The notes under the pieces were generated by a model, which was given only the letters and a program-made list of their open reading frames with translations, was not told where the DNA came from and ran no database searches. Source: Cystobacterineae bacterium (GTDB lineage: Bacteria > Myxococcota > Myxococcia > Myxococcales > Myxococcaceae). From it: a stretch of DNA of 50,550 bases. This document shows positions 348 through 10,992 of the stretch, in pieces (position 1 is the stretch's first letter; each line of letters begins with the position of its first letter). The translations under genes were made by a program, and so were the position numbers. The stretch lies in NCBI GenBank assembly GCA_009782175.1, contig WRKR01000020.1, positions 1 to 50,550 on the forward strand, in the 5' to 3' direction.

Positions 348-659
348 AAAAAAACCCTATTTAAATTGCCCGCCGCCAGGCGAAAAAACCATTCTGAAAC
401 CTTCCCAGAAACTTCCGGGAGACTTTCTCCGCTTGCTTTCCCAAAAAATTCAACTATGGTTCCTTCTAGGTGTTCAAAACACCAAACAGCGGATTTCTCG
501 CGCCCGACAGACGTGGTTTTTTTGCGCCATTTTTGGCTGGGTGTGGACGGATACAATACCCGAAAGGGGAAGAAGTCCACCGTTCTGTTTGCGGTTTTGA
601 GCACCCGGTCACCCTTCAAAAAGGTGCCCTCACTCAAAAAACAAACAGGAGGGCCAGAA

Positions 660-776
660 ATGGCTGACACCAACATGAAAAGCAAAGTCGGAAAAGAGAG
701 CAACACCGGGCCGCCTCGGGTGAAGCTGCGCATGCATGGAAATGCGCTTCCCGCCTTGGGCCGCCAAACGAGCTAA
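660..776 (+). CDS. 38-aa small protein, copy 1
   Basis: I do not recognise this family. The start is well supported: AGGAGGG lies six bases before ATG. The 38-residue product starts MADTN and carries the motif NTGPP-x3-LR-x-HGNAL, basic in the middle and with no membrane segment. The paralogue at 7245-7361 has the same length and about 22 of 38 identical residues. The HGNAL codons coincide with an inverted repeat (GCGCAT at 728-733, ATGCGC at 742-747). Conservation could therefore reflect RNA structure as well as the peptide. The ORF ends 28 nt before the hairpin at 804-834. It could be a regulatory peptide, a leader ORF, or part of a structured RNA. Confidence 0.6.
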   Translation: MADTNMKSKVGKESNTGPPRVKLRMHGNALPALGRQTS

Positions 777-803
777 CAAACCGGCATAAACCACAGCACA
801 AAG

Positions 804-834
804 AAACCCCTGTCTTCGCTGAAGGCGGGGGTTT
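804..834 (+). terminator. Conserved hairpin ending element copy 1
   Basis: Fourteen base pairs (804-817 with 821-834, including T-G wobbles) close on a GCT triloop, followed by only four T. The 39 bases around it (796-834) are identical to 7396-7434, the best conserved part of the element. It is a plausible intrinsic terminator with a weak T-run, or a stabilising 3' RNA structure. Confidence 0.65.
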
Positions 835-981
835 TCATGCACAACAACCCTCCTTGCAGCCCCTTAGCTTTGTTTTATTTTGTATATGCGTGTATTCTGC
901 TCTCTTGGAGGCGGCGTCCAGTGAAAGCAGAGGAGGGAGCGTGTTAGGAGAGAGATGATTTTGTGAAAAAAGAGGTTCTCT

Positions 982-1740
982 ATGAAGAATTTTTACAAAC
1001 TTTTGGGGAGCATTACTCTGGCGTTGGTTTTGTATTCCATAGCAGCCTGCGGTAGTGACTCGGATACAGACACCGACAACAGCCCTGGCGATAACCCTAA
1101 CAATACCGACACAGGCCCTGGCAACACCCCTGGCGATGACTCTCATAATGTCGCTTTCAAATACGATGAAAACGAAATTAAGAATAAATTAGGGGACAAC
1201 TATTGGATTATTTATGAGGCCACAGAATGGAAGGATGGAGCCATAACAGACACAACTTTCATTGAGCAGCGGCGTACACCAGAAGGTTTCTATTGGGACT
1301 ATCCCAGGGGAGAACCGCCGGAGTCAGGGGGGTTTTATATAAAAAATGCAGGCAACTATGACTGGTATATCAAAAACCCAGAGGGTGGATATTTCCAATA
1401 CCCTGGTCAGCTAACAGAGGAAGAAGCTGAATCTAATATGGATACCTTTGCGGCATCTCTGTATATGTCATGGTATACTGAATATAGATCTCAACTGAAA
1501 AGCGCCGGTTCCGAACAAGTCACTGGAAGGGATTGCGAAAAATATACATATACTCTATTCAGCGCCATCGACGATATAAACCTTCAAGAAACACATACAT
1601 ATTCCATTGATAAAGCAACCGGCGCGTGCCTCAAATATACATTGGAATTGACAGGCAACGCTATGAAACAAGACACCTATTTTGAATTTGTATGCACAAA
1701 ATTCCAAATGGGCGGTGTGAGTTTGCCCCCTTATCCTTGA
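982..1740 (+). CDS. Putative surface lipoprotein of unknown function
   Basis: The 252-aa product starts with a basic n-region, a hydrophobic stretch and a lipobox-like IAAC around residue 23, so it should be exported by Sec and lipidated. After the cysteine comes a disordered Asp/Ser/Thr/Pro/Asn-rich linker to about residue 55. A folded domain rich in Tyr and Trp follows, with three Cys (in RDCEKY, GACLKY and FVCTKF). The alternating pattern in the second half suggests a beta-rich fold, but I cannot assign a family. A GAGG lies about 6 nt before the ATG. The gene is AT-richer than those after it. It stands alone, 240 bp after the element at 422-838, and it opens the block bounded by the two element copies. 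Confidence 0.75.
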   Translation: MKNFYKLLGSITLALVLYSIAACGSDSDTDTDNSPGDNPNNTDTGPGNTPGDDSHNVAFKYDENEIKNKLGDNYWIIYEATEWKDGAITDTTFIEQRRTPEGFYWDYPRGEPPESGGFYIKNAGNYDWYIKNPEGGYFQYPGQLTEEEAESNMDTFAASLYMSWYTEYRSQLKSAGSEQVTGRDCEKYTYTLFSAIDDINLQETHTYSIDKATGACLKYTLELTGNAMKQDTYFEFVCTKFQMGGVSLPPYP

Positions 1741-1914
1741 GCTTGCTCCAAAACCAAACGCGCAGAACTCACCCCTGCCATCTGCTCCATGTTTTGCTTG
1801 AGCACCGCATATTCCCTGCCTCGCCGAACACCGCCTAGGCTTTCCTCGGGTACTCTGCGTTTTTCCAATACTTTGTGTTAGGGTGGCCCAGGAAACTAAA
1901 ACGGGGCATTTTTT

Positions 1915-1950
1915 CTCTCAAACATTCTCTCAAACATTCTCTCAAACATT
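1915..1950. repeat. Three tandem 12-bp repeats
   Basis: CTCTCAAACATT is repeated three times exactly (1915-1926, 1927-1938, 1939-1950), just upstream of the preferred start of the GLUG lipoprotein. The spacing is a whole number of codons and the frame is open through it, so a longer N-terminus cannot be excluded. Confidence 0.9.
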
Positions 1951-1970
1951 TTAAACACAGGGGCATAAGC

Positions 1971-3644
1971 ATGCTGCAGGCGTGGAGAAGAGAAGCGGAA
2001 GCACCCGGGGGAAGCACGCACAACTTCCACGCGCCCATGCGCTTTCTAAAGCGCCTCGCTGCGCGGCAGCCGGGTTTGAGGAGGCTGTGCTTTCTGCTGC
2101 TGGGTGCGGCATTGGGCGCCTGCTCTTCCTCGGAAGAAGAAGCGCAGAAGGACAACATGCTTGAGGTGCGCCCCCGTGCCATAGGCTTTTCGCCGCTGGG
2201 CGAAAACACTACCACCTTCAAAGTTATGGCTTCCGGGTTTGCCAACCGCGCCGAGGCAGACGCTGTGCAGCTTGAGCTTGTCCTTGAGGGGGCGCCCTCA
2301 TGGTTGTTGTTGGGGCCTGCCCTCAGCGAGGTTGCAGACAACAGCAAAACCTTTAGTGTCAGCCTTCAATATGTTGGCCAGGGGTTTATGGAGGCCCCGG
2401 CCATGCTCCACCTTTGGCTGAGCCATATGCCAGAGGGCTATGGCCCTGCCGCAACACAGACGCAAAGCATCCGCATTGTTGTGGGGAATGGCCAAAAAGA
2501 GCACCCCATTCCCCTAAACCAGGACAACATTAAAGCCTTCAACAGCTATGCAAACACGCAAGAGGGCCTGAGCCAGCACTATAAGCTGATTGAAAACATT
2601 GTATTGCCTCCGCCTCAGGGAGAGCCCAGCAACTGGACGCCCATAGGCGTATACGCCTATCCAATCAGCACCCCATTTGTGGGCAGTTTTGATGGTGACG
2701 GCTTTAGCATTTCCGGCCTCGTCATGGAGGTAGCTGAAGAAGAGCAGCAAGGTTTTTTTGGACAGAGCAGCGGAGAAATAAAAAACCTTGGGTTGATAGA
2801 GCTCCACGTTGCTGGGGGTGAATATATAGGCGGACTGGTGGGGAACAACTTGGGCACGGTGCAAAACTGTTATGCCACGGGCAATGTGAGCGGCTACGCT
2901 GAGGTGGGCGGCCTGGTAGGGAGCAACAGCGGCAGGATAGAAAAAAGCCATGCCACGGCCAACGTCAGCGCCAGCTTGGGTTTTGTAGGCGGCCTGCTCG
3001 GGGACAACCATGGCGGTGGCCGGGTAGAAAAAAGCTATGCCACGGGCAATGTGAGCGGTCGCTATAATGTGGGCGGCCTGGTGGGGAACAACGGCAATGC
3101 CAGCAGTGTGGAAAACTGCTATGCCACGGGCAACGTGGAGGGCAGAGAGAGTGCTGCCGCCGGCCTGGTAGCCCTGAATGACGGCGGCTGGGTGCAAAAC
3201 AGCTATGCCACAGGCAGCGTCCATGGCAGCTCGGATGTTGGCGGCGTTGTTGGACATAGCGAGATACTCTATAGCCCGGAGAGCAGGGTGCAAGGCTGCG
3301 TGGCTTTAAACCCAAGCCTTAGGCAAGCAAGCGACGAGAGCGCCTATATAGGACGCGTGCTGGGGAGCAACTGTGACATATATGAGCCAGACGAAGCATG
3401 CAGCACGCTCAGCAACAACCATGCACGCCACAACATGGTGCTGAGCTATAACAACGGCAGCAACAGCTATAGCCCCCACAACAGCCTGAGCTCCAAGGAT
3501 GGCCTGGCCAGCGCTGACTATAACAGAGAAACCTTCTGGAGAGGCCTGGGTTGGGATTTTTCCACAGTGTGGCAATGGGGCTCCAAGGGCCTTCCCATTT
3601 TGAGAGAGCTCAGCGGGGAGCAAAACCACACGGTGCTGCCCTAG
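1971..3644 (+). CDS. GLUG-repeat surface lipoprotein
   Basis: This is a large exported protein with six GLUG-type repeats (GGLVGNN, GGLVGSN, GGLLGDN, GGLVGNN, AGLVALN, GGVVGHS), each followed by a conserved C/SYATGNV-like strand, in roughly residues 285-430. GLUG repeats are known from bacterial surface proteins, including adhesins and peptidases, and fold as beta-helix-like stacks. The signal region contains RRLCFLLLGAALGAC, a good lipobox, then a Ser/Glu linker. Start choice: ATG 1971 has AGGGG seven bases upstream. ATG 2037 (MRFLKR) would give a more usual signal length but has no Shine-Dalgarno. The frame is open back to 1875. No catalytic motif was seen, so adhesion or cell-surface contact is the best guess. 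Confidence 0.8.
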   Translation: MLQAWRREAEAPGGSTHNFHAPMRFLKRLAARQPGLRRLCFLLLGAALGACSSSEEEAQKDNMLEVRPRAIGFSPLGENTTTFKVMASGFANRAEADAVQLELVLEGAPSWLLLGPALSEVADNSKTFSVSLQYVGQGFMEAPAMLHLWLSHMPEGYGPAATQTQSIRIVVGNGQKEHPIPLNQDNIKAFNSYANTQEGLSQHYKLIENIVLPPPQGEPSNWTPIGVYAYPISTPFVGSFDGDGFSISGLVMEVAEEEQQGFFGQSSGEIKNLGLIELHVAGGEYIGGLVGNNLGTVQNCYATGNVSGYAEVGGLVGSNSGRIEKSHATANVSASLGFVGGLLGDNHGGGRVEKSYATGNVSGRYNVGGLVGNNGNASSVENCYATGNVEGRESAAAGLVALNDGGWVQNSYATGSVHGSSDVGGVVGHSEILYSPESRVQGCVALNPSLRQASDESAYIGRVLGSNCDIYEPDEACSTLSNNHARHNMVLSYNNGSNSYSPHNSLSSKDGLASADYNRETFWRGLGWDFSTVWQWGSKGLPILRELSGEQNHTVLP

Positions 3645-3656
3645 CGCCAACCCTTT

Positions 3657-4433
3657 ATGCGTTTTTTCTCGCGTTGGCGCCGTGCGCGGATGTTGCAACG
3701 GAACGCCATTCCTGAAGCGTTGTGGAAAGAAGCCTTGGCCGCCTTGCCGTTTTTGGCAGATTGGCCCAGGAGCGAGCTGAATGCCTTGCGGGAAATGAGC
3801 GTGCTGTTTTTGTGTGAAAAAAACATTATCGGCGCTCAGGGTTTTGTGGTGACGCCCTTTCAGCGTGTTGTTGTGGCCATCCAAGCCTGCATCCCCGTGT
3901 TGAAGCTTGGGCTTGAATGGTATGAGGGTTTCAAAACCATTATATTATATTCCCATGAGTTCATCACCAACGCCGAGTGGGAGGATGAGGATGGGGTTAT
4001 CCATTGCGAGGAGGAGCCTCTCATGGGAGAAACCATGCTGGGCGGGCCCGTGGTACTCTCCTGGGCGGATTTAATGGATGCCGACAGAAAGCATGAGCCA
4101 AAGCGTGAGGCGCTGAAGCCACCTATTAACCCCGTCATCCACGAGTTTGTCCACAAGCTGGACATGAAAAATGGTGAAGCCAATGGCTGTCCGCCACTGC
4201 CGCCGGAGTTGCCAACAAAGCGCTGGCAGCAAATAATGGGAGCGGCCTATGCGGATTTTTGCCGCCGCACAGACGCGGGAGAGGATTTGGGGATAGACCC
4301 TTATGCCGCCGAAGAGCCGTCGGAATTTTTCGCGGTACTCTCTGAAACTTTTTTTGTGGCGCCAAAACGCCTGCGCGAAGCCTACCCAAAGGTTTATGAG
4401 TGCTTCCAGTTGTTTTATGGTTTTAAGGCATAG
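3657..4433 (+). CDS. mtfA: MtfA-family zinc peptidase (M90)
   Basis: The 258-aa protein has the gluzincin-like motif HEFVH at residues 162-166 in the context NPVIHEFVHKLDMKNG, and a downstream EPSEFFAVLSETFF (Glu 223) that fits the third zinc ligand region. This context is typical of MtfA. The E. coli protein binds the glucose repressor Mlc (DgsA) and has aminopeptidase activity; it is cytosolic. The length matches the family (about 250-270). No Mlc is seen nearby, so the partner here is unknown. The start lies 12 bp after the GLUG gene without a clear Shine-Dalgarno, suggesting cotranscription. Confidence 0.88.
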   Translation: MRFFSRWRRARMLQRNAIPEALWKEALAALPFLADWPRSELNALREMSVLFLCEKNIIGAQGFVVTPFQRVVVAIQACIPVLKLGLEWYEGFKTIILYSHEFITNAEWEDEDGVIHCEEEPLMGETMLGGPVVLSWADLMDADRKHEPKREALKPPINPVIHEFVHKLDMKNGEANGCPPLPPELPTKRWQQIMGAAYADFCRRTDAGEDLGIDPYAAEEPSEFFAVLSETFFVAPKRLREAYPKVYECFQLFYGFKA

Positions 4434-4452
4434 CTGATGAATTGTCCCCCAC

Positions 4453-4552
4453 GCTCAACCTGGCTGCTATGCTCAACCTGGCTGCTATGCTCAACCGGAC
4501 TGCTATGCCCAACATGGACCCTATGCTCTGCCCAACATGGACCCTATGCTCA
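4453..4552. repeat. 18-bp tandem repeats ending in a 23-bp duplication
   Basis: Units starting GCTCAACCTGGCTGC run at 4453-4470 and 4471-4488, then diverged units at 4489-4506 and 4507-4524. Bases 4507-4529 are duplicated with one mismatch at 4530-4552. The last duplication is 23 bp, not a multiple of three, so it changes the frame of the upstream ATG codons relative to the glycosyltransferase that starts inside it. Confidence 0.85.
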
Positions 4553-5994
4553 ACAATGTGAAGCCTCGCACGCTCAGGCGCGCCTATATGGCGGGGTTGG
4601 GCTTCATCTGCCTGGGCATTGTGCTCAACTGCTTTTTAAAGCTTTCTGCCGGCCCTTTGCAGGATTGGGATGAAGCCCGCCACGGAGTGAGCGCCTATGA
4701 GATGCTGCAGAGCGGCAACTTCCTGCTCAACACCTATGGCGGTATGCCGGATTATTGGAATGCCAAACCTCCCTTGAGCTTTTGGAGCATAGCTTTGGGC
4801 TATAGGCTGTTTGGCGCCAACCCTCTGGGGTTGCGTTTTTTTTCTGCCCTCTTTGCCTGCTCCATGTTTTTTTTGACGCTGATGTTTTGTTATAAAAAAA
4901 TGGCTGTGCGCGCCGCCGTCTTCTCCGGTTTGGTTTTCCTCTCTCTCAATGTGTTTTTTCAGCGGCACCATGCCCGCACGGCAGATCCGGACGCTCTTTT
5001 CCTTTTGCTCAACACAGCAGGGCTTTTGAGTGTGCTGGCTTGGCCCAAGCGCTATGGGGCTTATGCTGTGGCCGCCTTCCTTGCCGGCTTGGCTTTTTTG
5101 AGCAAAAGCTTCCATGCCGCCCCCATGGCTTTGTTGGTGTTGGTTTTTTTTCTGATGGATTTTCCCTTTTCCAAGCAAACCCTCAAACAGGGTATGTTGT
5201 GCCTGCTGCTTGCGCTTGCGCCGGTGGCGCTGTGGGCCATAGCGAGGCTCCAGGTGGATGGGAGCCTGTTTTTTGAGCATATGGTTTTTGACGATCTGCT
5301 CACCCGGGCAACCCAAACCATAGAGGGCCACCAGGGGGGCCCCTTCTATTATGTGGAGTTTGTTGCCCTCAAAAGCTACCGGTTTTGGATTTTGCCTCTG
5401 CTCCTCGCAGCCGCTGCTGTTTTTGCCCTGCGAAGGTATACGGCCCTGCCTGCTGCTCCCCTGCCTCTGGAGACAACTCCCCCCGCGGTGGATACCCCCA
5501 TGCTGTGCAAGCTTGTGCTTGCTGTGACGCTGCCCTTGCTCCTCTATTCCCTGTCAGCCTCAAAACTGTTTTGGTATAGCTACCCGACATTCCCTTTCCT
5601 CTCCTTGCTGCTGGGGCTTTTTTTGGACCGGACATGCACCCTTATGGAAACAAAAAACAAGCGGCTTGCCAAAACCTTCTTCTTTTGTGTTTTAGGCACA
5701 GGCCTGATGGGCGAAGCTTATACGCTGATGCGGATTTATAGGGACTCTGCCCAAACAAACCCTCTGCATGTGGCCATGCACAAGCTTGGGCAAAAGCCGG
5801 AAAACCACCATGCCGCATTGTTTGTGGATGAAGGCGACTGGAGGCCGGCGGATTTTTTGGCGGCAAAACTTTATGGTGGATTTTTGCTGATGGAAGGCGG
5901 AGCACCCGCCTGTGCCTCTGCTTTAGCGTTGAAAAAAAACTTCTTGTTGAGCCGAAATGAAAAATACACAAGGTGCACCAACACAAACAGCTGA
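4537..5994 (+). CDS. ArnT/PMT-like membrane glycosyltransferase (GT83 type)
   Basis: The 485-aa protein has about ten hydrophobic segments. After the first comes DWDEARHGVSAYEML, the acidic loop that in ArnT and related GT-C enzymes holds the catalytic Asp-Glu pair, followed by YWNAKPPLSFW and GLRFFSALFA, also typical. Such enzymes transfer a sugar from a polyprenyl-phosphate donor to lipid A, a glycan or a protein on the outer face of the inner membrane. The gene 21 bp downstream encodes a GT2 enzyme of the kind that makes such donors, so the two probably form one pathway. The start falls within tandem repeats; ATG 4537 and ATG 4546 are both possible and neither has a Shine-Dalgarno. The acceptor is not evident. 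Confidence 0.8.
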   Translation: MDPMLNNVKPRTLRRAYMAGLGFICLGIVLNCFLKLSAGPLQDWDEARHGVSAYEMLQSGNFLLNTYGGMPDYWNAKPPLSFWSIALGYRLFGANPLGLRFFSALFACSMFFLTLMFCYKKMAVRAAVFSGLVFLSLNVFFQRHHARTADPDALFLLLNTAGLLSVLAWPKRYGAYAVAAFLAGLAFLSKSFHAAPMALLVLVFFLMDFPFSKQTLKQGMLCLLLALAPVALWAIARLQVDGSLFFEHMVFDDLLTRATQTIEGHQGGPFYYVEFVALKSYRFWILPLLLAAAAVFALRRYTALPAAPLPLETTPPAVDTPMLCKLVLAVTLPLLLYSLSASKLFWYSYPTFPFLSLLLGLFLDRTCTLMETKNKRLAKTFFFCVLGTGLMGEAYTLMRIYRDSAQTNPLHVAMHKLGQKPENHHAALFVDEGDWRPADFLAAKLYGGFLLMEGGAPACASALALKKNFLLSRNEKYTRCTNTNS

Positions 5995-6015
5995 ACCCAT
6001 TTTGGAGAGCCTCCT

Positions 6016-6966
6016 ATGAAGCGCGCCACTCCCTGCCTTGCCTTGCTCATCCCCTGCTATAATGAAGAGGACACCCTGCCCCACCTGCTCCACACTTTGG
6101 ATAAACTCCTTGCCACGCTGAAAAGCGAAGGGCTGATCCACAACAACAGCTTTGTGCTTTATGTGGATGATGGCAGCCGCGACAATACATGGCAGATAAT
6201 TGAAGCGCACAGCCTCCAGAATGTGCATAGCAAAGGCCTGAAGTTGGCGGGCAACGTGGGCCACCAGAATGCTTTGCTGGCCGGTATGATGGAACTCCGC
6301 AACGAGGTGGATTGCCTGATCAGCATGGATGCGGATTTGCAGGATGATATAGCGGTTATTCCCAGCATGCTGAAGCACCATGCCGAAGGTTGTGAGGTCG
6401 TTTATGGTGTGCGGAACAACAGAGCTGCAGACAGCTTTTTTAAGCGCTATACGGCGGGGCTTTTTTATAAGCTGATGGGGAAAATAGGCGTGCGCATTGT
6501 CTCTCAGCACGCGGATTATAGACTGGTGAGCCAAACAGCCTTAAACGCGCTTGCGCAATATGGAGAGACGAACCTTTTTCTGCGCGGCATTTTCCCCTCC
6601 ATGGGCTTTCCCAGCGCCGTTGTGGCCTATGAGCGCAAAGAGCGGCAGCATGGAGAAAGCAAATACCCCCTCAAACGCATGCTCTCTTTCGCTTGGCAGG
6701 GGGTTAGCTCTTTCAGCGGCCTGCCCTTGCGTCTGGCCGGCGTGTGCAGCCTGGCCACTTTGCTGTTTGCCCTGCTGCTCAGCTTTCTGGCTCTTTTGGC
6801 CTGGGCACGCGGCGAAACCGTTTCCGGGTGGACTTCTCTTATTATTACTGTGCTGTTTTTAGGCTCCGTTCAGCTTTTCTGCCTCACCCTTATTGGAGAA
6901 TACCTCGCGAAAATTTATGCTGAGGTGAAACGCCGCCCCCGCTATATTGTAGAAAAAAAATGCTAG
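6016..6966 (+). CDS. Polyprenyl-phosphate glycosyltransferase (GT2, ArnC/GtrB-like)
   Basis: The 316-aa protein has an N-terminal GT-A domain with LIPCYNEE, YVDDGSRDNTW, a lysine-glycine-asparagine-histidine region (LAGNVGHQNAL), SMDADLQDD (the metal-binding DxD equivalent) and HADYRLVS. A positively charged KERQHGESKYPLKRM segment follows, then two C-terminal membrane helices. This matches the DPM1/GtrB/ArnC group, which transfers a sugar from a nucleotide to polyprenyl phosphate at the cytoplasmic face. GGAG stands 8-9 bases before the ATG. It is cotranscribed with the ArnT-like gene and should supply its lipid-linked donor. It ends 38 bp before the second 420-bp element. Confidence 0.9.
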   Translation: MKRATPCLALLIPCYNEEDTLPHLLHTLDKLLATLKSEGLIHNNSFVLYVDDGSRDNTWQIIEAHSLQNVHSKGLKLAGNVGHQNALLAGMMELRNEVDCLISMDADLQDDIAVIPSMLKHHAEGCEVVYGVRNNRAADSFFKRYTAGLFYKLMGKIGVRIVSQHADYRLVSQTALNALAQYGETNLFLRGIFPSMGFPSAVVAYERKERQHGESKYPLKRMLSFAWQGVSSFSGLPLRLAGVCSLATLLFALLLSFLALLAWARGETVSGWTSLIITVLFLGSVQLFCLTLIGEYLAKIYAEVKRRPRYIVEKKC

Positions 6967-7244
6967 GCCGCTTCCTCTTGAGGCAGTGCTCCACCACCTG
7001 GCCACTTTCTCCGCTTGCTTTCTCAAAAAATTCAACTATAGTCTCTCTTGGTGCTCAAAACACTTTACAAAGCGGTCTTTCCGCGCCCGACAGACGTGGT
7101 TTTTTTGTGCCATGCTTGGCCGGGTGTGAGACGGATACAATACCTGCAAGGGGAAGAAGTCCGCCGTTCTTTGTACGGTTTTGAGCACCCGGTCACCTCT
7201 CAAAAAGAGAACCGCCATTCAAAAAATACAAAGGAGGGCCAGAA

Positions 7245-7361
7245 ATGGCTGACGCAAACATAGAAAGAAAATTCGGAATAGAACGAAATACCGGGCCGCC
7301 TCAACGGCAGCTGCGCATTCATGGGAATGCGCTTCACGCCACAGACTCCCAAACGGGCTAA
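7245..7361 (+). CDS. 38-aa small protein, copy 2
   Basis: This is a paralogue of the ORF at 660-776, with the same length, the same Shine-Dalgarno and spacing, and the shared motif NTGPP-x3-LR-x-HGNAL. The rest differs (for example IERKFGIER in the N-terminal third). The HGNAL codons lie in a perfect 8-bp inverted repeat (GCGCATTC 7313-7320, GAATGCGC 7325-7332) that is stronger than in copy 1. The length is preserved despite many substitutions, which favours translation. The palindrome and 3' hairpin favour an RNA role. No partner gene is evident. Confidence 0.6.
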   Translation: MADANIERKFGIERNTGPPQRQLRIHGNALHATDSQTG

Positions 7362-7403
7362 GAATCCGACAAACCTTAAAAAACCTTAAACCAACGCACA
7401 AAG

Positions 7404-7434
7404 AAACCCCTGTCTTCGCTGAAGGCGGGGGTTT
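7404..7434 (+). terminator. Conserved hairpin ending element copy 2
   Basis: This is the same 14-bp stem with GCT loop as at 804-834, followed by three T. The flanking 39 bases are identical between copies while the rest of the element has diverged. Confidence 0.65.
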
Positions 7435-7441
7435 GCATGTG

Positions 7442-7851: not shown

Positions 7852-8159
7852 AGGCGCAAACCTATGCGCCTATAGCCAACAAAGAAAGAAAATGGCCTTT
7901 GAGCAGCCCCACCTCCCCAAAGCATGCCCCCTTTAAATAAAACAAAGCCCCCATACCTGGGCTGTACCCTTCGCCCAATAACAACATTGCCTCGGGCGAG
8001 TTTAACTTTGCCTCGGTTAAGCTTAACTTTGCCTCGGTTAAGCTTAACTTTGCCTCGGGCGCCGTGGAATTTGCCGTTATTGTGCTCAATATTCCCGTTT
8101 TTGAGCTTAACATGGGGCCCATTCCCCCCCTCGGAGAGGGAAAAACAAAAACAACCCCC
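7852..8159. other. Gap with tandem repeats and dispersed C-run/A-tract unit
   Basis: No convincing gene is seen. The stretch holds the 21-bp tandem repeats (7986-8069). It also holds, near 8123-8152, a C-run/GGAG/G-run/A-tract unit resembling those at 171-193 and 223-256. A minus-strand frame of 86 codons exists (to about 8122), but it consists largely of translated repeats. Confidence 0.5.
7986..8069. repeat. Four 21-bp tandem repeats with internal palindrome
   Basis: The unit is TTTGCCTCGGTTAAGCTTAAC. Units 8007-8027 and 8028-8048 are exact; the outer two (7986-8006, 8049-8069) are diverged. Each core contains the perfect palindrome GTTAAGCTTAAC. A 21-bp spacing would put the palindromes on the same DNA face every two turns, as in iterated operators, but the location downstream of rluA argues for simple repeat expansion. 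Confidence 0.85.
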
Positions 8160-9192: not shown

Positions 9193-10992
9193 ATGCGTAT
9201 GCGTTTTATAGCAGCGGTTTTGGGGCTTGTGGGCTTTTCTTGCGCCACAGCGCCCCTGCATGACACGGTGCCCAAACGAGAGGTAGCCCAAGCAGAGGCC
9301 ATCCATTTTGTGCTGCTGGCGACGAATGACTGGCATGGCCAGCTGTTTGCCACAAAGCCCGAGGAAGGGGCCTTGCCTCAAGGGGGAGTGCTGGCCTTCT
9401 CCTCCATGCTGTCAGCCCTGCGGGAGGCCTTCCCCGAGAGGACAATATGGGTAGACGCGGGGAATATGCTGGGAGAGGAGTGGGCCTCCCCACAACAAGG
9501 GCAATTGCTGGTGGACGCTTTTTCCCTCTTGGGCCTGGAGTTTGCAACCCTGGGCAACGGCGAGTTTGATTTGGGGCCCCTCGAGGAAGAGGCCCAGGGG
9601 GCACTAAAAGCCCACCTCCTGCGGGCGAAATTTCCGTGGAGCTCCGCCAATGTTTATTTGAAGGCAACCGGTAACCACCCGGCCTGGTTGGGTACGGGCC
9701 TGCACATGCTGGAGAGGCAAGGCGTGCACCTGGGGTTTATAGGCTTAACCACGCCGAATACCCCTCAATATAGCCATGCCTCCAACCTGAGAGGCCTCTA
9801 TTTTGGCGACATGGCATGGGCGGCAGAGCAGGGAGCATTGGCCTTGAGAGAGAAAGGGGCGGAGTTGGTTATATTGGCCATACACGCGCCTGGAACGTGC
9901 GCGCATGGGGACAAGCCTGAGGCATTGCCCGCTGAGGCGCTGCCCACCGAGGCGCTGCCCACCGAGGCGCTGCCCACTGAGGCATTGCCCCCCTGCAACC
10001 TGGAGGAAGGGGAAATATGGCCGTTGTTGGAGGCCTTGCCTGAGGGGCTTGTGGATGTGGCCATAACCGGGCATACGCTTCAGCCTCTGGGGCATTTTTA
10101 TAAGGGAGTTCCGGTGGTGCAAACACGAGGCATGGGCAAAAGCTTTGCGCTTGTCCACCTCTATTGGGAGCCCAAGGCACGCCGGCTTTTGCGCGAGAGG
10201 ACGCGCATAGAGGTGGAGGTGCCCATTTGCGAAAAAATATGGCCCAGCAGCCAAAACTGCAAGGGCCCCCCCAAGGAGGGGGAGGTGGCCGTGCCCAGCA
10301 TGTTTTTAGGGAAGGCAGGGCGCGTGGATGCCAAGCTTGAGGCTCTGCTGAGGCCTTTTGAGGGGAATGCCAGAGAGAGGAGAGCAGAAAGCCTGGGTGT
10401 GGAAGTGGGGGAGCGGCTTTCCATGCATGGAGAGGAGGCCTCCGCATTGGGTGGCATGTGGGCAGAAAGTGTGTTGTTGGCGAGCAAGGCGGATGTTGCT
10501 TTGCTCAGCCGGGAGGTTTTCCGTGCGGATTTGGAGGCGGGCATGCTTTCGGCAGGCAAGCTATATGAGAGCATGCCTTATGGCAGCCGTTTGGCCTTGG
10601 TGCGCTTTTCAGGGGAGGAGCTTCGGCGCCTCATGCAAGCGGCACTGGGGCAGACCCGTTTTCGCTTTGATGTTGCAGGTGTGGAGTTAAGGCTAAGCTG
10701 CTTTCCCTCAGGGCGCAGGCGGGTGAAGACGCAGCTGGTTTCAGCGGAGGGGAAAAAGAGGGAAATAGAGGACAAGGCCTTCTATTGGGTAGCCATGCCC
10801 GAGTTTTTGGCACAAGGCGGAGGTGGCCTCGAGGGAGTGTTGGACACAGGGCCTCGACAGACAACACTGAAAAAGGACTTCAGAGAAGAGGTGCTGCACT
10901 TTTGGCAACAAAGGAAGCAAGCTTTGCTTGCACCTCATAAACCAAAAATTTTATGGGAGGGTATGCTAAACTCTTGCCACAATGGTGGTTGA
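9193..10992 (+). CDS. UshA/5'-nucleotidase-like lipoprotein, probably catalytically defective
   Basis: The 599-aa protein starts with a lipoprotein signal (LGLVGFSC). A calcineurin-like metallophosphatase domain follows (about residues 38-330), then a 5'-nucleotidase C-terminal domain (about 370-560, with PYGSRLALVRFSGEELRRLMQ). Compared with UshA, D46, H48, N122, D126, H231 and H294 align with conserved residues. The bridging metal ligand Asp of the GGD motif is N91 (DAGN), and the catalytic His of GNHEFD is G123 (GNGEFD). Loss of both predicts weak or no hydrolysis. Five tandem EALPT-type repeats are inserted near residues 243-267. ATG 9199 has the better Shine-Dalgarno (GAGG). It is likely periplasmic, anchored to a membrane. 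Confidence 0.82.
   Translation: MRMRFIAAVLGLVGFSCATAPLHDTVPKREVAQAEAIHFVLLATNDWHGQLFATKPEEGALPQGGVLAFSSMLSALREAFPERTIWVDAGNMLGEEWASPQQGQLLVDAFSLLGLEFATLGNGEFDLGPLEEEAQGALKAHLLRAKFPWSSANVYLKATGNHPAWLGTGLHMLERQGVHLGFIGLTTPNTPQYSHASNLRGLYFGDMAWAAEQGALALREKGAELVILAIHAPGTCAHGDKPEALPAEALPTEALPTEALPTEALPPCNLEEGEIWPLLEALPEGLVDVAITGHTLQPLGHFYKGVPVVQTRGMGKSFALVHLYWEPKARRLLRERTRIEVEVPICEKIWPSSQNCKGPPKEGEVAVPSMFLGKAGRVDAKLEALLRPFEGNARERRAESLGVEVGERLSMHGEEASALGGMWAESVLLASKADVALLSREVFRADLEAGMLSAGKLYESMPYGSRLALVRFSGEELRRLMQAALGQTRFRFDVAGVELRLSCFPSGRRRVKTQLVSAEGKKREIEDKAFYWVAMPEFLAQGGGGLEGVLDTGPRQTTLKKDFREEVLHFWQQRKQALLAPHKPKILWEGMLNSCHNGG
9919..9993. repeat. Five in-frame 15-bp repeats
   Basis: GAGGCGCTGCCCACC and variants are repeated five times, encoding EALP(A/T/P) pentapeptides within the UshA-like protein. 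The insertion lies in a surface loop between the histidines at 231 and 294. Confidence 0.9.

Follow-up and report, generated by a model that had tools for sequence, protein, structure and literature searches.

In two diverged direct repeats of the 50,550-nt stretch of DNA analysed here (hereafter the window), the segment that precedes a 38-codon ORF is the RNA sRNA-Xcc1 (Rfam RF02221), and each repeat is very probably an antisense-RNA module of the C4 type, complete in itself and derived from phages. Modules of this kind are known; what is new is the minimal payload, the copy-specific keys and the abundance of C4-type RNAs in the genus.

Copy 1 (422-839) and copy 2 (7004-7439) are direct repeats with 81% identity (blastn E 2e-112), also found by a repeat finder, so that the original prediction of two diverged direct copies sharing one plan was borne out. 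A third copy, likewise with an ORF of 38 codons, was located close to a contig end of the same genome (C11:248-683), and blastn showed that module copies are scattered across the contigs of this source genome, with truncated ones at C2:127258, C29:363 and C24:336. Together with two sister genomes, the source genome yielded a genus set of 11 copies. No phage gene was recognised among ten neighbouring window proteins that were scanned, no antirepressor was found beside the copies, and a pattern search of viral contigs gave no close relatives of the two module blocks. The window also contains a low-complexity intergenic repeat at 60-350 (CGCCGGAGGCGA, GGGCCGCAGGCCC, TTTTTTTGTCTG), which recurs at several contig ends (L011, L013, L014) and beside truncated module copies, and short tandem repeats, between or in genes, at 4447-4554, 7983-8079 and 9919-9993 (periods of 18, 21 and 15 bp).

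A covariance-model search matched both window RNAs to RF02221 over its full length (model positions 1-87), with 68.2 and 71 bits against a gathering threshold of 53 bits, and the copies on C11 and C2 also scored above gathering. The leader, which had at first been reported as unrecognised, is therefore a known RNA with a C4-type architecture. The TACAAT sequences (552-557 in copy 1 and 7136-7141 in copy 2), proposed earlier as a possible -10 element, belong to the conserved core of the sRNA-Xcc1 alignment, ATACAATACCCGAAAGGGGAA, and are thus no promoter. Both RNAs start with GG, at 535 and 7118. The Rfam C4 model (RF01695) gave no gathering-level match in the window and none at E<=1 in 400-860, which is why we class these RNAs as C4-type and not as C4; RF02221 itself stands outside Rfam's C4 clan. 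The parts of the two modules are listed below.

433 to 460, + strand: putative promoter of copy 1, TTGCTT-16 nt-TATGGT, suggested by the blocks TTGC and CTATRGT, conserved across the 11-copy alignment
473 to 480, + strand: b1 site of copy 1, TTCAAAAC, complementary to b'
483 to 489, + strand: a1 key of copy 1, CAAACAG, followed by CGG (three-way key test)
498 to 523, + strand: terminator-like hairpin of copy 1, TCGCG-loop-CGTGG then T7, read from the sequence and conserved in 11 copies
535 to 618, + strand: sRNA-Xcc1 RNA of copy 1 (RF02221, 68.2 bits)
585 to 591, + strand: a' key of copy 1, CTGTTTG, in the third-hairpin loop (key test)
594 to 601, + strand: b' site of copy 1, GTTTTGAG
633 to 639, + strand: b2 site of copy 1, CTCAAAA
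642 to 648, + strand: a2 key of copy 1, CAAACAG, abutting the Shine-Dalgarno sequence (key test)
647 to 652, + strand: Shine-Dalgarno sequence of copy 1, AGGAGG
660 to 776, + strand: 38-codon ORF of copy 1, MADTNMKSKVGKESNTGPPRVKLRMHGNALPALGRQTS (coding 660-773, stop 774-776)
764 to 784, + strand: 3' block of copy 1, CCAAACGAGCTAACAAACCGG, containing the stop codon and conserved behind differing payloads
804 to 834, + strand: 3' hairpin of copy 1, a likely terminator (31 nt, identical in both copies)
7015 to 7042, + strand: putative promoter of copy 2, TTGCTT-16 nt-TATAGT, suggested by the 11-copy alignment
7050 to 7061, + strand: b1 site of copy 2, GGTGCTCAAAAC, a 12-nt complement of b'
7066 to 7072, + strand: a1 key of copy 2, TACAAAG (three-way key test)
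7081 to 7106, + strand: terminator-like hairpin of copy 2, CCGCG-loop-CGTGG then T7, read from the sequence and conserved
7118 to 7202, + strand: sRNA-Xcc1 RNA of copy 2 (RF02221, 71 bits)
7169 to 7175, + strand: a' key of copy 2, CTTTGTA (key test)
7178 to 7189, + strand: b' site of copy 2
7218 to 7224, + strand: b2 site of copy 2, TTCAAAA
7227 to 7233, + strand: a2 key of copy 2, TACAAAG (key test)
7245 to 7361, + strand: 38-codon ORF of copy 2, MADANIERKFGIERNTGPPQRQLRIHGNALHATDSQTG (coding 7245-7358, stop 7359-7361)
7404 to 7434, + strand: 3' hairpin of copy 2, a likely terminator (31 nt, identical in both copies)

As had been predicted, both copies carry a consensus Shine-Dalgarno sequence at equal spacing and share their 3' hairpin. 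The promoter of copy 1 is likely to lie upstream of 467, judging from the conserved blocks; a consensus promoter scan, at its threshold, reported no site for the proposed promoter of either copy, and a terminator pattern scan, at its threshold, did not detect the proposed hairpins. Minimum-energy folds of the window RNAs consist of a closing stem and two inner hairpins with a' in a loop, and b' is complementary to b1 and b2 in both copies, with G-U pairs in b1 of copy 1 and in b2 of copy 2. All sRNA-Xcc1-type modules of the genus, whatever their payload, end with a GCCCAAACGAGYTA(G/A)..CCGG block (764-784 and 7349-7367 in the window, 7517 and 10559 in L010 from contig C2, 2674 in L019 from contig C19). 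The reverse complement of this block corresponds to the third hairpin, b' and part of the closing stem in the C4-type RNAs that this genome carries.

The evidence for an antisense function comes from one short sequence that occurs three times in each window copy: before CGG in the upstream part, complemented in the a' loop of the RNA and again directly before the Shine-Dalgarno sequence. These keys (a1/a'/a2) read CAAACAG/CTGTTTG/CAAACAG in copy 1 and TACAAAG/CTTTGTA/TACAAAG in copy 2, and in the genus copies GGAG directly adjoins the downstream key and CGG comes after the upstream one. We asked whether the RNA contains a 7-mer with complements both upstream and downstream, and parts shuffled between copies served as a control. 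An exact three-way key was present in 10 of the 11 genus copies (shuffled mean 0.54, max 3), in 35 of 59 loci collected from other bacteria with the RNA core pattern (shuffled mean 0.59, max 4) and in 37 of 62 non-redundant viral loci (shuffled mean 0.49, max 3); these statistics ignore relatedness within the sets, and shuffling among relatives errs in the conservative direction. The key covaries with the Shine-Dalgarno flank of the ORF and therefore the start codon is, or was, regulated. At three Xanthomonas loci (L036, L039, L050), a1/a' are kept (and b1/b' as well in L039) and no a2 is found at the Shine-Dalgarno sequence, as if the cis target had been lost.

The six copies of the source genome have six different keys, 1 to 5 mismatches apart. 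Since each copy has its own 7-nt key, the copies would regulate mainly themselves; the closest keys, those of copy 1 and the C19 copy, differ by a single base, so that cross-talk between these two is possible. Over the whole region, predicted duplexes averaged -27.0 kcal/mol with cognate targets and -20.2 kcal/mol with non-cognate ones, the cognate duplex not being better in every pair because the C19 target (L019) pairs with the conserved stem.

These keys also bear on whether the elements could be decayed antirepressor modules that spread as repeats with no present function. The truncated copies, the variable payload and the lack of phage genes among the ten scanned neighbours would all fit such decay. 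However, different keys matched in 10 of 11 copies would require either selection or three sites that have all changed very recently, and the Shine-Dalgarno sequence and start codon are intact in all short-ORF copies, so that we consider decay rather unlikely.

We propose that each C4-type module would work from a single transcript, running through b1/a1, a weak terminator-like hairpin, sRNA-Xcc1, b2/a2, the Shine-Dalgarno sequence and the small ORF to end at the 3' hairpin. In the uncut transcript, a1/b1 would hold a'/b' and keep the RNA inactive until processing, and folds of the full transcript indeed predicted that a1/b1 pair with a'/b' in both copies. Cleavage at the GG 5' end, a step that RNase P performs in P1, would probably release the RNA. 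The freed loop a' and junction b' would then pair with a2/b2 of their own mRNA and block the Shine-Dalgarno sequence, so that the ORF, a reduced or replaced payload of the module, would normally be silent. When the transcript was cut in silico at the 5' end of the RNA, a'/b' were predicted to pair with a2/b2 over the Shine-Dalgarno sequence in copy 1, and no cis pairing with a2 was predicted in copy 2. This modelling suggests that cleavage may switch the RNA from an inactive to an active form.

Such an arrangement closely resembles the C4 RNAs of P1/P7, which owe their specificity to a', mask ribosome-binding sites with their loops and are matured by RNase P (PMC5320573). The window copies share with P1/P7 C4 (RF01695) and its c4-a1b1 (RF03163) the order a1/b1, antisense RNA, a2/b2 and Shine-Dalgarno sequence, the variable a' key, the closing stem with two hairpins and the GG at the 5' end. 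In both window copies, a' is complementary to an upstream a1 and to an a2 at the ribosome-binding site, as in C4. Unlike P1/P7 C4, they miss the C4 model, lack icd/ant genes and carry a tiny ORF; control of an antirepressor operon, which is seen in phage relatives, is replaced in the window by a 38-codon ORF with no family match. Acinetobacter baumannii C4-like sRNAs are similar in having many copies per genome, a conserved body and a variable a' loop, but their targets were left open (PMC5320573), whereas here a cis target carries the same key. IsrK of Salmonella Gifsy-1 (RF01394) is comparable in that one prophage locus is reported to give rise to a short RNA and a longer mRNA; isrK had no Rfam match in the window. 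In the openly accessible literature, we found no paper linking sRNA-Xcc1 with C4 by mechanism, and C4 antisense RNA and sRNA-Xcc1 are mentioned together only in the annotation table of one paper.

In Xanthomonas, sRNA-Xcc1 is described as trans-acting and located in integron cassettes (PMC12444791), whereas the window RNAs lie outside any recognised integron, with a predicted cis target at the Shine-Dalgarno sequence and a 38-codon ORF. That the elements are integron gene cassettes too is very improbable, considering that the copies are scattered over contigs. A cassette origin was rejected when the three genomes gave no integrase at the NCBIfam cut-off (best 83.8 of 265 bits).

What follows the RNA in other genomes supports a phage origin of the module. 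The next gene is annotated as an antirepressor in four of five phage matches (Aaphi23, IFTN1, Rac-SA53 and Pmp3) and as a hypothetical protein in the fifth, Mcat15. Of the ORFs that follow this RNA in other bacteria, 56 were compared with Pfam, which recognised Bro-N (13), P22_AR_N (7), KilA-N (6), Rha (3), AntA (3), helix-turn-helix (2) and SymE (1) domains, counts that may overlap. In Neisseria weixii, a 1-kb stretch (L083:4610-5651) contains matches to sRNA-Xcc1 and to C4 in alternation. Within the phylum, the RNA was found in 3 of 195 genomes, solely the three of this genus, and was therefore probably acquired horizontally. The same three genomes have 18, 15 and 4 matches to RF01695. In the source genome (G000 L093-L104, L106-L110), these are about 18 C4-type RNAs of 28-46 bits, many near contig ends; those examined mostly have an upstream a1/b1 (7-12 nt) and no comparable a2 before the next ORF.

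We then turn to the ORF itself, which the original prediction had taken for a selected microprotein family behind an ordinary 5' leader, an explanation that we regard as possible but doubtful. The 38 codons of each window copy, with 22 identical residues, stand, and a short ORF of the form MAD...N[TR]GPP... recurs with its Shine-Dalgarno sequence and start codon in eight copies from the three genomes; NTGPP/NRGPP residues survive synonymous changes in the sister species (L022-L026), and the antisense key is aimed at this very start codon. On the other hand, length is not exactly kept in the genus: three copies have 38 codons and those of the sister species 33-40, one of them with a one-base frame change. 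Values of dN/dS among the three 38-codon copies were 0.84, 0.61 and 0.72 (Nei-Gojobori), which, with few substitutions and little power, point at most faintly to a selected microprotein. The LRxHGNAL codons overlie a GCGCAT...ATGCGC hairpin and are nearly unchanged, so that constraint on the nucleic acid may explain this motif. The peptide matches no family in Pfam or PHROGs, and unrelated ORFs of 101-128 aa occupy the same slot behind the same leader in other copies, including a 128-aa ORF at 112 and 115 kb of contig C2. Of the earlier alternatives, a "dual-function RNA" comes close, since this multi-copy family joins an RNA part and a translated part. On our reading, the start codon is a regulated one and the peptide would be either a new product of minor importance or a payload that has shrunk. 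By inspection of the sequence, a HicA/HicB-like pair follows the 128-aa-ORF module at 112 kb of C2 (L010:7660-8230), and on C19 a single sRNA-Xcc1-type leader whose a2 key is lost precedes three paralogous ORFs in tandem, each of about 100 aa (L019:1592-2700).

An antisense RNA lying over the Shine-Dalgarno sequence of a tiny ORF, in several copies with separate keys, also recalls type I toxin-antitoxin systems in which a peptide toxin is silenced by RNA, all the more so as one sampled locus, like Xanthomonas cassettes (PMC12444791), has SymE behind this RNA. Nevertheless, we judge this improbable: the peptide is charged, contains proline, has no membrane segment by inspection and shows no similarity to the SymE that occupies the same position, and the RNA is C4-like, placed upstream on the same strand and not opposite the gene. 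A SymE remnant was rejected, Pfam PF08845 being unmatched and no alignment with SymE being obtained.

The C4-type reading of the modules has consequences for sRNA-Xcc1 as a family. Published work treats this RNA as a virulence sRNA that acts in trans and as a vesicle cargo for which plant targets have been predicted. The covariation described here indicates that what it ordinarily pairs with is, as a rule, the ribosome-binding site of the next gene, which in most sampled cases is a phage-type antirepressor. This provides a direct and testable mechanism for a widespread family, together with a natural set of orthogonal antisense keys. A single 2.7-Mb genome contains six or more sRNA-Xcc1-type modules, each with a key of its own, and about 18 C4-type RNAs; on this basis, we tentatively speculate, without considering it likely, that a genus with reduced genomes may have converted phage immunity RNAs of the C4 type into a set of antisense switches insulated from one another, some of which would drive new tiny peptides or act in trans on incoming elements that carry the same key.
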